From Arctopsyche grandis (Eukaryota; Arthropoda; Insecta; Trichoptera; Hydropsychidae): a stretch of 64,000 nucleotides of DNA. The stretch spans positions 2,945,001 to 3,009,000 of the forward strand of contig NC_135366.1 in NCBI RefSeq assembly GCF_051622035.1, given 5' to 3'. This document shows positions 45,022-64,000 of this stretch, piece after piece. The position numbers were made by a program, and so were the translations under genes. Position 1 is the stretch's first letter, and every line of letters begins with the position of its first letter. The notes under the pieces were generated by a model. The model was not told the DNA's origin, did not search any database, and worked only from the letters and a program-made list of their open reading frames with translations.

Positions 45022-48000
45022 GGGGAGGTTCCTGACTGCAAATCGTCTCCGTTGAAGCACCGCTGGTCGGGTCACAGCAGCGGGAGGGGGAGGCAGGAGA
45101 CAAACTCCGTACTGCCTCGTGTGGACACAAGATGGCGATCTCTGGACGTCTCTGAAGACGCTCGGCGGAGATGCTGGATAGGGAGGTCCTTCCCGGACGA
45201 CGGCTGGCAACAGAGAGAAGAGGCTCTGCGGTCCTCTGGTCGGTCCTCTCACGGCTGAGGTTTCTCCGGAAACGGCGTGAGGAATGCAGGGGACGTTGTG
45301 CTGGAACTCAGGGGAGGGAGTGATGCTACACTCGACCTCAAAGCGGTTCTTCAGCACTGATGGTGGATCTCTGGGCCCCGTCTCCCCCTGGAGACGTGCA
45401 CAGGAGAGATCTTTCTTCGACGGGCGATCGCGGGTGAGAGAGGCTCGCTCTACATGCGCGCGCGCCTATAAGGCTTTTTTCTGGGTGGCCACTCGAAATA
45501 AAAGGCGAGTGTTGCCCTATGGGACGATGGGGAGAACGTCGCGTTACAGAGTCGAAAATATTGTATTCCTTAAAATATACGAAACAAGACATCGCACTGT
45601 TGTATACTTGTAACACACCCGAACCATAATTCGTGGAAACATCAGGATAGCAGGTATAGCTTCGGTCCGCATAGAGCTACATCAGTATTGTATGTTATAT
45701 TATCTTTGTGACTGTCAAATGTATTTCTTCAAGGATGTCGAGTATTGGTTGGTCATCGAAAGAACAATGTCCAAGATGTGGGATTAGGGGTAAAAGCACT
45801 ATGTTTTCATGAATGAACTTAAAAACGTTCAGTCTCTCTTGTCTGGTCCTGTTCAGAACTAAATCTTTTGATTTTCAGTCAGTTTTTCTGGTTAATTTTT
45901 ATTGTGATTAAAATGTTTTATCCCGAATTAATATTATTTATACAAATGCTGATAAAATTAATGAGCAGCCAATTTAAGTGTACACAAGCAACTAACCTCA
46001 TTGAATTTGCATTCAAACATTCCAGATAAACGTTCACTCGAAAGCTCGCACAAAGACTTCTTCGTTGAAAAATAGATACCCCAACAGTACAAATTCAACC
46101 ACCACAACCTTATCATAATAAGAATGTTGTTAACTTCACAACTATTTTTCACCATGGAGTAGAAACGCAACTACATACATAGACTTCATCATGAAGTAGA
46201 ACAGAAAAGCTCTATCTTATGTGAAAAACCATTAACATGTTAGCGTATAATTCTAACAATTGAAGGATCACGGGCTTGAGCTCCGATCCAGTATTGCTGG
46301 CCAGGCCTTGAATATATGTGATTCCAGTTCGATCGCTTCCTATCATAGTTTGCTAATTTATATGATTTCATTGTTGAAGCGGTTCCTACCAAATTGGCTA
46401 CCTGTCCTCATTTGTCACCATTATTTGAATTTATAATAATGTTATAAATTTATAAAATTAAAATTAAATAATAATGTTGCGTAGGGGTGGGTTCAGGACC
46501 CAAAGTCGCTTCACAGCATTTATTCAACAATTTGGGAGGTCCATACGAAACCACCGCTCATTCCAGAATAATCTGTGTGTACCTCCTTATAAAGGACAAG
46601 TTGCACAACACAGCTTCCCCGATCCATTAATGTGTCTAATGTGTAGGCACTTAAAGGTCTACCCTGGCGAGTCTATTGCTTACGCACGCACTCGCCCAGA
46701 TCTGTGAGAACTCCAGCGCATGCTTTGTTCGGGCACTTACTGAGTCCCGTTAGCTTAATCAGGGGTCTCTATTTACACCCACGAATTCACTTAGACAGTG
46801 GATACTCTCTCTTTCTCAGTTCCCACGTTACAATCATTTCATTGGCTATGCTAATATCTTCTCGTTTACCTGTAACGAGTATGACACCACATTTGCACCA
46901 TTATGTCTAAAAGAATCCACATCGAGATGGCTAGAACAGCATTTGTAAAAATGAAGGCGGCGCTTACAAACAAGCATCTCAATCTTCATACGCGGTTGAG
47001 ATTCGCGAAGAGCTACGTCTGGACAGTATTACTACACGGATGTGAGACCTGGACTCTGAAGACCAAGATGATCAGTCGCATCGAAGCTTTTGAGATGTGG
47101 GTCTACAGGCGTATGCTGAAGATTCCGTGGACCAAAAAGATATCAAACGAAGCTTTGGAACTTGTTTCTGTCATCAAGCGGAGAAAGATGGAGTACCTCG
47201 GACACATGATACGGGGTCCAAAATACGAATTTCTCCGTTTGATAACCAAAAAATGGATTGGCAGGACACATGCGCATGTGGAGCGATATGAGCGCCGAAG
47301 ATCTGTTCCGAGCCGCTGAAGACCGATGCGGAAATCTTCAAATAATCGACGAGGTGGTCGCCAACGTCTGGATGCGGACAAGGCATTAATAAGAAGAAGA
47401 ATAGAAGGCAATCTACATAACTACATACATCGCTCATATATAAATCATTGTTGAAGGGCCAAATTCCGATTACTAAACAACCATAATATATTTCATGGCT
47501 GACAACTCTCAGAGCGGGCCTGCTTAGCTCACAGTGTCAATCAATCGCGACGGCTTCGATTTAACTCATTGCATTTTGTAAACCTTATAGCATACATACC
47601 CAAGTATTAGCAAACACGTAGAACCACTACCAAACCAACACACACCCATTCACTTCCATACATATGCCACAGTGTCATATTGGGGTGACCTGTGAAGACA
47701 CTGTGGTATACTTATGTATTAAAAATAAATAAATAAATATGTACATACAAATCTGCAAGCCAAATCACATTCCCATACTTTTCAAACTGTACGTATGCAT
47801 TCCAGAGACAAATCGACGTTTACCATTTGCTACCAAACACTAGCTATTGGTTCAGAGTGTGGGCAACTAACGTCAGGGGATCCAGCGATCCCGTCGAAGC
47901 TTTGGGTCACACTTTGTACAGTGACGTAGAAAAGGGTATTTATCATCTAAATCGAATCTTACTACTGTCCTATTAATTCGTTTCGTTTACGACGGCCCAC

Positions 48001-53325: not shown

Positions 53326-53334
53326 AATTCATAT

Positions 53335-53832
53335 GGTTGTGGCTATTTGCAGGTACTATATATGTGATTTATTGGCTATTTGCAGGTACTATATCTGCGA
53401 AAGGCGCAAACTCTTCTGCGCATGCGCGTGAACTGTCACTGTCAGTGTGTTTACTGTTAAAATTTTGTTTTGAACCTCTTAAAATTTAGATCGAACTCGT
53501 TAAGTGACGTAGAGTAAAACATATAATCCAAATTAGTTAATATTATTAATTGTTAGAAAATTATTATCATATACAACGTATAATACCTACATACAAGTAC
53601 AAGTCGCGAACTAGCAAAATGATATAAATCTATTATAATAACGTGCGAAATTTATTTGCTTCATGTATAATGAACGATTGATTAAACAAGTCTAGCATAC
53701 ATTAAATGTAAGAAATTGTAATCGGCTTAAACCAAAATTTTAGCAGTAAACACGCTGACAGTGACAGTTCACGCGCATGCGCAGAAGGCTTTGCGCCTGT
53801 TGCAGATATAGTACCTGCAAATAGCCACAACC
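53335..53832. mobile_element. TIR element B, GGTTGTGGC family, perfect 9-bp TSD
   Basis: TSD AATTCATAT is at 53326-53334 and 53833-53841. Termini GGTTGTGGCTATTTGCAGG and its inverse are perfect. It has two arm units at the left and one at the right, against three and three in element A. Confidence 0.92.
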
Positions 53833-53841
53833 AATTCATAT

Positions 53842-58098: not shown

Positions 58099-61000
58099 CT
58101 AAAATTTTTTAGGAATGTCTGTCTGAATGGCGACATTAAATCTCAACAATGCGGTCAACGTGGATTGCACCTGTGGAATCATTTTATTATTAATCTGATT
58201 ATTAGTAGATGATTCATATTCGAGAGCTACTCTTTTGTTGACAAGCGTTAGCAATTGCAGAAGGTCCCAATACGATGCTTCTTCTTCAAACACTTCACAC
58301 AGAGATTGAATGAACCATGAGCCATCAACATCGCTTTCAATATTGGAATCTGTTATTAACATAAGAATAATAAATTAAAAACGCCCTTATTGAACTATAA
58401 TATATTATTATATTCCAATATTTATGTGGATGAATAATAAAAGCGTTGTGAGTGATGTGATAATGGATGGGAGAGTGGTAGAAGTAGTAGATGATATTAA
58501 ATATTTGGGCATTTATTTGAATTGTAAATTATGGCAAAAAAAGTTGGTGTACTTTGTAGGTTAGGAAATTTATTAAGTATAAAAAGTAAAATATGAATAT
58601 ATAATTGTATTGTACGGCCACATATTGTATGTATATTGTGCTACAGTGCTCAATCTATTTAGTGGATTGTGTATTGATAAACTGCAGAAGGTACAGAATA
58701 GAGCAATGCGTGCAATTTTGAATGTGAGGAAACGTAAGAATGTTAGAAGTATGTTAGATGAATTGAAATGGTTGGATGTTAGAAATAGTCTTAAATTGAG
58801 CACTTTAAAATTTATATATAAGCTAATAATCATATAGCTAGTGTAGGAATATAGCACGACTTGTGCTATTACGAATCAAAACCAGTGAACTCATCATCGA
58901 TCCTGTACAAACATGCATAGATCAAGGGCAACGTCCCCATCGACCATTCCAGAAGAAAGAGTTCATCGCTCGATCGTAAAACGAACGAAACCCAACAGTG
59001 ATGTCATCAGGCAACCGCAACACATGTCTTGAAAAGTCGTTAATGCGTGGCACACGACCCCATTCTCAAACGAACGACGTCCTGGCGCTGACCCCATAGC
59101 TATAAACCACACGTGTACCGAAGACACGTGCCTCGAAAACAGGTCAACACGTGACCCTAACACACGTGTCCTGGAAACGAAGACAAAGCATCTGCACACG
59201 GCACGCTTCAAGCCAGAACGTATAAAAAGCGATGCACCAGCTCTCAACACCAGAGTGAACCTCTGGAGTTCAACCAGCTCACTTCTCCGAAGCTCAAGCT
59301 CTTCGTACATACAATAACCATTGTAACAATTGAACAAAAATAAACGATCCTCTTACAAACTACAAAACATGTGTTTCGTTAGGCCGGGATACGGTCAATA
59401 TACCTTCCCTGCCTTACACTAGGAATAGAGATATACATAATTATAAAACTAGAAATAGGAATAATAAATTATGTAATTATAGGTAGAGATAAGAAAACAA
59501 ACACTGCAGGAGGTGTTTTCCACAGAGGTGTTCAAATATACAATGACCTTCCTGAGAGCATTAGAGGTGCTACTAACATTGGTGCTTTCTTAAAGATGAC
59601 GTAATTATATACGTAAGTTTAACAAAATGCTACGTTGAATTATATTATATTATTTTAGATTTAGTAATTATAGTTTTGTTAATTTTGCGAACTATTTTAT
59701 ATTATAGCTGTTAGTTTAAGTTTGAAATTGTTAATTGTGAAATTGTGAAATAATTCATTAGCAATTTGCTATTTAATAAATAAATAAATAAATTTACCCT
59801 CATATATGGAATGCATGTGTAAAAAGTCAGCCATCGATGGTATTTTCGAATTGGCTGGTGAAGTTTCAACAAAAGTGTCCGTTACTGAAAAACCACTATC
59901 TATTACTGAAGAACCACGATCTATCTTTTCGATATGAGTGCCTTTTAGTGCCTGGAATTAATTATTTTTATTGCAATAATTGATCAGTACGAAACATTTA
60001 TTCCTAAAATTATGATCTTATTACCTGAATAAAGTATAATTTGGGTATTCCGGCCAAATTTGGGCATTCAGTCGCAGACAAACCATTCCATAATATATTG
60101 GTCTCGTATGATGAATCTGCAGCTTCTAAAGAGCCTGGGCTGCCATGAGTCATAACCACAATAATTAAACAACTAATTTCACGTGGTTTTTTATTTTGAA
60201 CTGAAAATATTAAAATGGATTAATTGTTCTATTGGTGTTTTCTATTGTTCATATGTACCTATAGGTAGGTAGATAGTTTTTACCATTATTATTATATCAT
60301 ATTAAACAACTAAATGTAAATATTAAATTAAATATATTCAAAAGGTATTTGAATAAAATTCGACCGCGTGCGGATCGAGCAGAGGACCGAAACGTTTCTT
60401 TTAATTTTTTTTTTAAATTTAATAACATAATATGCCAACACCCATGTGATATTTCATCGGGTACAACACTAGTATGTATATTTATATTTACAATGATTTT
60501 CTAGAAGAAGAAAGCTTGATTATAATGACTAGAGACACGTACATATTTTGGGCATTTTGCTATTAATGCTTAATTGATGCTAAAATTCGGAATATATGCG
60601 AATAGATGCTAAATTCGTAAAATATGCGAATAGATGCTAAAATAACAAACAAAAGTGAAATTTGCATAAAATTAATAGACAATTTAGAAGGGTCTTCCTA
60701 TCCCTTTGCCCATTTATTATGTGAAGAAATTGAGAGGATAAAACAGAGCTTGCAGTTTACCATAGAAACCAAGCAACTGCTTTTGTCTACTACTGTAAAC
60801 AAAATAAGACAGGTGGAGCTGTGTATCCGAAAGGCTGCTGAAAAGCGTGTTAAAACTAGACTAGCATTCAAGACTAAATGAGACAATTCTATTCCTCCAA
60901 ACATTGAGTAAACTATTCAATCCATCTGTGGCAGGTACAAAATATAATATTAATGTTAAAGAAACAGTTAGAAACCTGCCATTGTTTAATGTATTAACAG

Positions 61001-62818
61001 AGGCTCAATGTTTGGAAGGATGTCAGCACTTTTTTAGACATTTAATTTCTTCTTGTTAATGCCTTGTCCGCATCCGGACGTTGGCGACCACCTCGTCGAT
61101 TATTTGAATATATCCGCATCGGTCTTCAGCGGCTCGGAACAGCTCTTCGGCGCTCATATCGGTCCACATGCGCATGTTTCGAAGCCAAGATAACTTTTTC
61201 CTGCCAATCCATTTTTTTCCTTCTATTTTCCCCATGGTTATCAAACGGAGAAATTCGTATTTTGGACCCCGTATCATGTGTCCGAGGTACTCCATCTTTC
61301 TCCGCTTGATGACAGAAACAAGTTCCCTGACTCTCCCCATCATGCCGAGGACAGCTTCGTTTGATATCTTTTTGGTCCACGGAATCTTCAGCATACGCCT
61401 ATAGACCCACATCTCAAAAGCTTCAATGCGGCTGATCATCTTGGTTTTCAGAGTCCACGTCTCACATCCGTGTAGTAATACTGTCCAGACGTAGCTCTTC
61501 GCGAATCTCAACCGCGTATGAAGATTGAGATGCTTGTTTGTAAGGGCCGCCTTCATTTTTACAAATGCTGTTCTAGCCATCTCGATGCGGATTTTTAGAT
61601 CTTCATCTGGGTCCATCTCTTCATTCAGCCAGGTACCCAGGTATTTGAATCTTTTTACTCTTTCTATCACCTCTCCATCCAAGGTTAGATTCCCGGTGTC
61701 TGTTTGCATTCTATCTACTATCATAAATTTTGTTTTCTTTAGATTTATGCGCAGACCTCTTCGATTGCTTTCTTGATGTACACGGTCTAGAGATCTTTGC
61801 AGGTCTGCTAAATTTTCAGCGACTAGTGCCGTGTCATCAGCATATCTTATATTGGTGATCGTCTCGCCGCCCACCTTGATGCCCTCCGCCTCTTGGAGAG
61901 CATCGTGGAAGATGGATTCGGTGTAGGTGTTAAAAAGAGTAGGTGATAGGATGCATCCTTGCCTGACGCCCCGTTCTATAGGAATCTTCTATAGACATTT
62001 AATAGAGAATATAAAAAGTGAATCCACGCCGGATATATTGCTATTATTGATGGCAACAAAAATTAAATATGAAGAGTTTGGTTGTGCAGCTCTAAAATCT
62101 ATTCGGTGTCCCGTCAATAGTGTGGATGCTGAAAGGTATTTTAGTAAATACAATATAATTGTTACCGATGTCGCTAAAATTGAACATTTTTAATGCCCTA
62201 AAATGCAAAATGAAAATGCTAAAATTGCCAAAAATAGATGCCCAAAATACGTGTCTCTAATAATGACGTTTAGACGAAAATTGCCCAACTAACAAATATT
62301 ATATTTTGGGAAATTTTTTGGACAAAATAAAAATGTATACATACTCAACTTCAGTTGACTTTTTATTTCAGCAACTTTTAAATCATCAAATATTGTCACA
62401 TCGAAATTTAAATTTTCCAAACAACTTTTCAGGTCAAAAATGTCAAATTCCATGCCCTCTTGATTTGGAACCTTCACTTCGCTGTATTCCTTTGATATAT
62501 ATTCATAATGATTAAATATAATCGCTTGGCCCTTTTTAATCATTTCGTAACTGAATAATGATGGATTGTATCTGCGTATAGTTTGAAGATCCGTGACATG
62601 TTGACTTGAATTGTAAAAAAAGATATTATATTTACAATTATTTAACTATACCTAATTCTGAAAGTGTTCCAAGGATGATGACCTTATATTCAGGTGTTAG
62701 GAATCAATTTTAATAATGCCTTAAAAAGCTTAAATGATACTAATAAATATGTATTTTACCTTGGAGTAGGTAACTCTAAAACTTTTCCATCAGTTTGTGA
62801 TTCACCTCTGATATCCAT
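58099..62818 (-). CDS. Caspase homologue lacking the catalytic cysteine
   Basis: Minus-strand exons are 62818-62760 (start), 62604-62345, 60200-60025, 59951-59798 and 58349-58099. They give 900 nt, 299 aa, the size of a short-prodomain caspase. The p20 part shows GQAIIFNHYEY, FDIFDLKSCLENLNFDV, the catalytic-type His in MTHGSPG (His 125) and AGIPKLYFIQ. The p10 part has DGSWFIQSLCEVFEEE, LLTLVNKRVALEYES and MIPQVQSTL. The active-site pentapeptide is QALKG (Leu 167) instead of QACxG. The residue matching caspase-3 Arg64 is Gln 68, and the one matching Arg207 is Glu 221. It should thus be proteolytically dead yet folded. The frame is intact across five exons, so it is not an obvious pseudogene. 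The exon with the start extends in frame upstream to 62841, so a further 5' exon is possible. Introns carry an hAT element and retroelements. Confidence 0.87.
58430..59790 (+). mobile_element. Degenerate non-LTR retrotransposon, split by a solo LTR
   Basis: The remnant reading contains DDIKYLGIYLNCKL, then LQKVQNRAMRAILNVRKR and DVRNSLKLSTLKFIYKL. After the LTR it continues [14 protein letters not shown] and the HRGVQIYND-like block. It has several stops and frameshifts, and a TAAATAAATAAAT tail at about 59778-59790. Same family as 21498-21830. It lies in the caspase intron, antisense. Confidence 0.8.
58842..59418 (+). mobile_element. Solo LTR with perfect TSD CTAG
   Basis: 577 bp, TGTAGGAATATAGCACG to CCCTGCCTTACA, flanked by CTAG at 58838-58841 and 59419-59422. 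TATAAAAAGC (59221) and an AAATAAACG poly(A) site (about 59338) are in the right order for U3-R-U5. Its end GTTAGGCCGGGATACGG is shared with the LTRs at 8394 and 26557. Removing it rejoins the retrotransposon text AGCTAGGAATAGAGATATAC. Confidence 0.9.
60624..60881 (+). pseudogene. hAT transposase-like internal fragment
   Basis: An 85-residue frame (CIKLIDNLEGSSYPFAHLL and onward) ending at TGA. It lies within the hAT element and is compatible with a transposase segment, but shows no diagnostic motif by itself. The following text has several stops. Confidence 0.45.
61047..61991 (-). pseudogene. RTE-like retrotransposon, 5'-truncated, nested in hAT
   Basis: A minus-strand frame open for about 310 codons. 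It reads IPIERGVRQGCILSPTLFN (RT motif), then the catalytic IRYADDTALVAENLADLQ, GLRINLKKTKFMIV, FKYLGTWLNEEMDPDEDLK and HGCETWTLK, to EELFRAAEDRCGY. The N-terminal endonuclease and first RT motifs are missing. A 12-bp TSD TAGACATTTAAT (61035-61046, 61992-62003) proves target-primed insertion into the hAT gene. The intact frame suggests youth. A deleted relative is at 46903-47395. Confidence 0.93.
61992..62193 (+). pseudogene. hAT transposase C-terminal (dimerisation) fragment
   Basis: TKIKYEEFGCAALKSIRCPV then NSVDAERYFSKYNIIVTD matches the hAT family C-terminal dimerisation motif (the S/A-x-x-ERxFS pattern). It follows the RTE insertion directly and stops at 62193. Confidence 0.75.
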
Positions 62819-62841
62819 TTCGGTCACCGGAAAGCCAACGA

Positions 62842-63240
62842 CTTAAAATTAAAATTATCATCGAAAATATATTTCGAACGATAGGAAAACAGATATGCAC
62901 ATACATATTAACAAATATACATTTGATAAGATTAGGGTTAGAATGAGACGTACATACGTATTATGTATTTTGATTCAATATCAAAAGAACATTTATTGAC
63001 ATACCCACACTTCACGGAAATCCATCCGATAATTTCACATATGAAATAAAATATCATAAATTTAATATTAAAGCATTATTTTTTATTCAATTTATCTTCA
63101 TTTTTAAATTATTATAACTTTTTCTTCAAAATTAAGTTAAATAATAAAATTTAAAATAATGTTGTTTATTTTTTATTTATCATAAATATGTACACATATA
63201 CATGTAGGTAGGTATGTACATAATATAAAATTGTATCTCA
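62842..63240. other. Caspase intergenic spacer
   Basis: AT-rich DNA between the first caspase and its upstream paralogue. It should hold the promoter of the first. No TATA box is evident. Confidence 0.35.
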
Positions 63241-63249
63241 TATTTTTTT

Positions 63250-63706
63250 GGTTGTGGCTATTTGCAGGTACTATATCCGCGACAGGCGCAAAGCCTTCTG
63301 CGCATGCGCGTGAATTTGTTCAATCAATCGTTCATTATACATGAGGCAAATAAATTTCGCACGTTATTATAATAGATTTATATCATTTAGCTAGTTCACG
63401 TCTTGTACTTGTATGTAGGTATTATACCTTGTATATGATAATAATTTTCTAACAATTAATAATATTAACTAATTTGGATTATATTTTTTACTCTACGTCA
63501 CTTTGCGAGTTCGTTTAACTAAATTTTAAGAGGTTTAAAACAAAATTTTAACAGTAAACACGCTGACAGTGACGGTTCACGCGCATGCGCAGAAGGCTTT
63601 GCACCTGTCGCAGATATAGTACCTGCAAATAGCCAATAATTTGCAGATATAGTACCTGCAAATAGCCAATAATTTGCAGGTATAGTACCGGCAAATAGCC
63701 ACAACC
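63250..63706. mobile_element. TIR element C, GGTTGTGGC family, perfect 9-bp TSD
   Basis: TSD TATTTTTTT is at 63241-63249 and 63707-63715. It has one arm unit at the left and three at the right. The body is inverted relative to elements A and B. It lies between the two caspases. Confidence 0.9.
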
Positions 63707-63753
63707 TATTTTTTTAAATATTTAACAAAAAATAATACACATATAACTATAAT

Positions 63754-64000
63754 TCATACCGGAGTTTCATTTAAACTTTTGACGACTTTAAATTTTAACA
63801 ATTTAGTCAACATAGATTTAACCTGTGGGATCTGTTTCATTCCATCAGTGGATTTCTGGGTTTTAGTGGATGATTCATATTCATAAGCTACTTTTTTATT
63901 GACGAATGTAAGCAATTGAACAAGATCCCAATATAATGCTTCGTTTTCAAGCACTTCACACAGGGATTGAATAAACCATGTGCCATTACTTTCTCTCCAG
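63754..64000 (-). CDS. Second caspase, C-terminal (p10) exon, partial
   Basis: The frame runs from the window edge to a stop at 63754. It reads WRESNGTWFIQSLCEVLENE, then YWDLVQLLTFVNKKVAYEYES and MKQIPQVKSMLTKLLKF, the p10 small subunit of a caspase. It is closely related to the last exon of the gene at 58099-62818 (FIQSLCEV, QLLT.VNK.VA.EYESST), so the two are tandem duplicates. Unlike its neighbour it keeps the WR of the SWR substrate-pocket motif. The catalytic Cys exon lies outside the window. Confidence 0.9.
   Translation of the reverse strand, partial: WRESNGTWFIQSLCEVLENEALYWDLVQLLTFVNKKVAYEYESSTKTQKSTDGMKQIPQVKSMLTKLLKFKVVKSLNETPV

Follow-up and report, generated by a model that had tools for sequence, protein, structure and literature searches.

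A predicted catalytically dead caspase beside a paralogue in Arctopsyche grandis (Trichoptera)

We identified a five-exon caspase-like gene in Arctopsyche grandis whose predicted product has lost both the catalytic cysteine and part of its substrate pocket, and which adjoins a caspase paralogue on the same strand. Judged by its sequence, the 299-aa protein belongs with effector-type pseudocaspases that have a short prodomain. Among solved structures it comes closest to the effector caspases of insects, and its catalytic death is well supported by the alignments. The explanation that we consider best overall, at a probability of roughly one half, is a constrained pseudocaspase that perhaps serves as a non-catalytic dimer partner, by analogy with CASPS18 of Aedes aegypti or FLIP(L). 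Taken separately, it is probable that the gene product is both dead and constrained, and more tentative, by the same analogies, that its mode of action is to pair with an active caspase. A few inactive caspase relatives of this kind are already known, and the present gene looks like another: an inactive copy adjoining its relative, with a possible present role in regulating other proteases. Should orthologues confirm it, the gene would be a further insect pseudocaspase adjoining a paralogue, with the substrate pocket lost besides the nucleophile, and it would help show how frequently caspases are regulated by dead copies in insects. Among the literature matches listed, none was recognised as a paper on this gene.

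Gene model and class assignment

The window, by which we mean the whole stretch of 64,000 nucleotides that was analysed, holds the gene on its minus strand, running from 62818 to 58099 (Table 1). The spliced coding sequence comprises 900 nt including the TAG stop and encodes 299 aa. All four introns (155, 2144, 73, and 1448 nt) have GT...AG boundaries, the spliced frame contains no internal stop, and in-frame stops lie upstream of the ATG. The intact five-exon frame of 299 aa proposed in a first-pass annotation of this DNA is therefore borne out.

Table 1. Coordinates of the caspase-like gene, its neighbour, and adjoining elements within the window
Feature	Coordinates	Strand	Remarks
Exon 1	62760..62818	-	Short prodomain; translation start at 62818, preceded by in-frame stops
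Exon 2	62345..62604	-	Large subunit, first part; Gln68 at Arg64 position
Exon 3	60025..60200	-	Catalytic His125; last residues FIQ165
Exon 4	59798..59951	-	ALKG, Leu167 replacing catalytic Cys, then intersubunit linker
Exon 5	58099..58349	-	Most of small subunit, interface strand, TAG stop
AATAAA	57971..57976	-	Possible polyadenylation signal, 123 nt past stop; chance-frequent in such AT-rich DNA
Upstream paralogue, last exon	63754..63999	-	81 aa and TGA, coding 63757-63999; cut by window end
MITE-like inverted repeat	63250..63708	.	Between both caspase genes
LINE reverse-transcriptase fragment	61056..61988	-	In intron 2; RVT_1 E 1.4e-20

Peptidase_C14 (PF00656) is the sole Pfam family found in the 299-aa protein (E 9.3e-35, residues 45-284). 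The match scores 120.8 bits against a cut-off of 21.4 and covers positions 2-231 of the 233 in the profile, thereby spanning both the large and the small subunits. With the exons as predicted, 44 residues precede it, corresponding to a short prodomain; any non-coding exons further upstream would leave this number unchanged. The top matches among PDB entries were 1m72 (125.3 bits), 3sir (124.4), and 2nn3 (120.2), the next entry scoring 99.5. We take 1m72 and 2nn3 to be Spodoptera effector caspases and 3sir to be drICE; of the other chains, 5jft is presumably from zebrafish and 3nr2 from human.

The neighbouring exon upstream also belongs to this family (Pfam C14, E 1.2e-11), and it is 65% identical to the 299-aa protein over a 69-column alignment. 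It retains the pocket Trp-Arg, as the first-pass annotation had stated for the adjacent paralogue. The description of the locus as tandem caspases holds insofar as a C14 exon neighbours the gene on the same strand, and the second member is represented by that one exon of 81 aa only. A tblastn search of the window with the 299-aa protein found no further caspase pieces, giving two chance-level matches (E 3.8 and 7.0). The same type of search gave no match in phages, and six short peptide patterns, which reach close relatives only, confirmed no relative in viral or genome contigs.

Residue losses and constraint

Alignment with solved caspases places Leu167 at the position of the catalytic Cys, within a motif that reads QALKG (residues 165-169). 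The catalytic His125 is kept in MTHG, as are Gly126 and Gln165. Both the QALKG in place of QACxG and the retained His had been noticed at first pass, and both stand. The Leu167 codon, CTA, is three changes away from any Cys codon, and a single sequencing error was rejected as its source for that reason.

The S1 pocket is altered as well. Its positions are given here by the caspase-3 numbers Arg64 and Arg207. Gln68, encoded by exon 2, occupies the Arg64 position in the alignment, in agreement with the earlier reading. An ungapped count backwards from GSW sets Glu221 opposite the Arg207 position. In the alignment with the codons of the neighbour (W-R-E-S--N-G-T-W against N-I-E-S-D-V-D-G-S-W, with the gap placed by hand), the Trp206/Arg207 positions are instead taken by Asn219/Ile220, and two extra codons follow Ser222. 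Arg207 is lost under both alignments (Glu221 or Ile220), such that its loss, as first claimed, is upheld and the naming of Glu221 as the replacement depends on the alignment chosen. With nucleophile and pocket Arg both missing, a protein would be expected to be unable to cut an Asp substrate or to trap one.

The intersubunit linker (exon 4, 59798-59951) is longer than in the two solved insect chains. Glu194 aligns with the Asp of TETD-G in these chains, and VTD190 is another possible processing site.

Beyond the pocket, we compared the protein with columns that are near-invariant among four solved caspases, with at least three letters present. It keeps 43 of 63 such columns and has lost 20. 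Those kept include His125, Gly126, and Gln165, together with G226-S-W, L233-C, P275, and L281-T in the small subunit. Losses fall on four of the seven columns that we count as pocket and on 17 of 57 elsewhere, which is not a significant concentration (Fisher P 0.20). The catalytic-Cys column was added to the pocket count by hand, since the 3nr2 row reads QAARG and the column hence lay outside the invariant set. This lack of concentration points to general relaxation as well. When each solved caspase was held out in turn, the 299-aa protein keeps 60-68% of columns, compared to 63% for the held-out caspase-6 and 79-90% for the other three chains. In its overall divergence the protein thus roughly equals the most divergent of the solved chains compared, and it has lost the pocket and undergone some general relaxation.

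The tail of the paralogue allows a comparison at the codon level, for which 70 of its 81 codons were taken (three stand opposite a gap, and the last eight, without clear alignment, were omitted). The same residue is encoded at 47 of the 70, and differences at codon positions 1, 2, and 3 number 12, 14, and 26 (chi-square P 0.037). Across four methods (NG86, LWL85, YN00, and ML), dN is 0.21-0.24 and dS 0.53-0.92, averaged across both branches and the 70 codons. The NG86 bootstrap, which likewise averages both branches, gives a median omega of 0.31 (95% 0.12-0.65), with values of at least 1 in 0.4% of 499 replicates. When the 23 residue differences are set against solved caspases, the paralogue alone matches at seven, this copy alone at six, both at two, and neither at eight. 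The seven paralogue-only and six this-copy-only matches indicate no excess change on the tail of the dead copy, in a test of small counts and low power. Near-invariant tail columns are kept at 14 of 20 in the dead copy and at 16 of 20 in the paralogue.

A young pseudogene, in which a tandem duplicate has lost its function and has yet to gain a stop or frameshift, would accommodate the 20 lost columns and the lack of significant enrichment in the pocket, and the transposon pieces in introns 2 and 4 would suit it too, though intronic insertions are ordinary. We regard this reading as unlikely given a simulation of neutral decay. Under neutrality, some 43 to 68 substitutions that create a stop are expected in the frame for each substitution per site. 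The probability of no stop then reaches 0.05 at t = 0.044-0.070 and is no higher past that point, yet a minimum of 3 + 1 + 2 substitutions, six in all, is required for Leu167, Gln68, and Glu221. Under full neutrality, an open frame combined with six or more substitutions across the three pocket codons has a joint probability of no more than about 6e-6 for any value of t tried. With the Cys loss granted, the upper limit is about 4e-4 among the eight values of t that were tabulated; the calculation presumes an ancestor with Cys, Arg64, and Arg207 and leaves out multi-base mutations. The intact splice sites also speak against a young pseudogene, as does the range of tail omega, itself a two-branch average. 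Fully neutral decay of a dead caspase frame fits poorly, and the simulation and the paralogue comparison support selection on the reading frame. Both favour the initial proposal of selection rather than decay, which is weakened on one side by the absence of significant enrichment among the pocket losses.

Two further explanations concern what the frame encodes and how its product would work. An exon or isoform outside our model could restore QACxG and make this an ordinary caspase, and the junction falling exactly at FIQ|ALKG means that exon choice could change the motif. We consider a missed catalytic exon very improbable. Uninterrupted QACxG is absent from all six frames of the window, a scan that would miss a motif divided between two exons and by which an alternative QACxG exon in uninterrupted form was rejected. 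Also absent is [ACGST]CxG from the minus frames of 58350-60200, a span that includes the 73-nt intron dividing FIQ|ALKG. Moreover, exon 4 runs in frame into the domain, and both pocket Arg residues are lost in other exons. Alternatively, a constrained dead caspase could work through another surface, e.g. by occupying inhibitor-of-apoptosis proteins or an upstream initiator, with no caspase pairing involved. The joint loss of pocket and nucleophile with much of the fold signature retained would fit such a role, as would the regulation of CASPS18 and CASPS19 activity by IAP1 described in PMC4840389. Against it stands an interface strand that is still recognisable, and we hold this alternative to be somewhat unlikely, less so than a young pseudogene.

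Possible role and known pseudocaspases

Among the nearest analogues is CASPS18 of Aedes aegypti, presented in PMC4840389 as a decoy without its own catalytic domain that acts as an enhancer for CASPS19, both being Decay homologues. The likeness lies in an insect effector-type caspase without catalysis and with a paralogous caspase present; the difference is that enhancement of CASPS19 has been reported (PMC4840389), whereas for the present gene it would be a prediction. For the pseudocaspase FLIP(L), the heterodimer formed with caspase-8 is described as favoured over the homodimer (PMC7586951). FLIP(L) likewise has a caspase domain without catalysis, and it maps to the chromosomal region that also holds its active paralogues, caspase-8 and -10 (PMC7586951). 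However, FLIP(L) carries tandem DEDs, has His and Cys replaced by Arg and Tyr, and partners an initiator, while the present protein has a short prodomain, keeps the His, and resembles effectors.

More distant comparisons come from nematodes and Lepidoptera. CSP-2 (with a VCCRG active site) and CSP-3 (with no active site) of C. elegans are likewise caspase homologues with altered active sites, though CSP-2 keeps a Cys in its motif and the lineage differs (PMC3591282). Inhibition of apoptosis by these proteins was reported by others; in PMC3591282 itself, neither csp-2 nor csp-3 had a detectable role in apoptosis. The noctuid Lep-Caspase-1 and -2 are tandem effector caspases of an insect in the same orientation, as here, but the pair in H. 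armigera is intronless and treated as active, unlike the present gene (PMC3141678). That 2011 survey of Lepidoptera found no separate decoy genes, but sequences entered it on a binding and/or active-site motif (PMC3141678), a criterion that would disfavour them. In Bombyx, DroncS, which is without the core active site, is put forward as a decoy in PMC3091752.

For the constrained pseudocaspase that we favour, we hypothesize that the dead protein would fold like a caspase and would be unable to bind or cut an Asp substrate. Its domain might be kept for pairing, through the interface strand of the small subunit, with an active caspase, for which the adjacent paralogue would be the simplest candidate. 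Such pairing would alter activation of the active partner; our first guess is enhancement, as with CASPS18, and the second is dominant-negative pairing. The decoy-partner pair suggested at first pass is of this type and has the standing of an analogy.

The interface strand reads IPQVQSTLTALLRF in the dead copy and IPQVKSMLTKLLKF in the neighbour. At the position of caspase-3 Cys264, both copies have Gln and all four solved chains have Cys. At the position of caspase-3 Val266, which we take to be at the dimer interface, the dead copy has Gln278 and the neighbour Lys, and the four solved chains have Thr, Thr, Val, and Ala. Changes at Val266 of caspase-3 are described as setting its activity, V266H being inactive and V266E constitutively active (PMC13170818). 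Judging from these residues, an altered and possibly preferential pairing of the dead copy with its neighbour is thinkable. A stronger proposal, which we rate as quite improbable, is that both genes form an obligate pair of effector class. Two facing Lys residues would weaken the homodimer of the paralogue and the dead copy would relieve this, such that the active enzyme would be mainly a heterodimer carrying one active site. FLIP(L) is known to pair in this one-site manner with an initiator, whereas the obligate pair proposed here would place such pairing in an effector.

Repeats and other frames in the window

Several transposon-like pieces lie in and around the caspase genes. The LINE fragment of intron 2 is flanked on both sides by TAGACATTTAAT (61030-62010, read directly), which looks like a target-site duplication. 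ORFs around it appear hAT-transposase-like by eye, two of these being without a Pfam match, and a partial copy of the element of this region, 86% identical, occurs at 46906-47398. The MITE-like repeat has 60-nt arms that are 97% complementary and a 33-nt terminal unit in three tandem copies; similar copies are found at about 388-958 and 53334-53836.

Neither Rfam nor ARAGORN returned any match or gene in the window, and Pfam searches of ten further ORFs gave three matches, all under the curated cut-off. Elsewhere, an open single-exon frame at 12313-13086 matches the exosome subunit RRP40 (PF21262, E 8.5e-35), and an alpha/beta-hydrolase frame (PF00561, E 3e-21) lies on the minus strand at 1518-2447.
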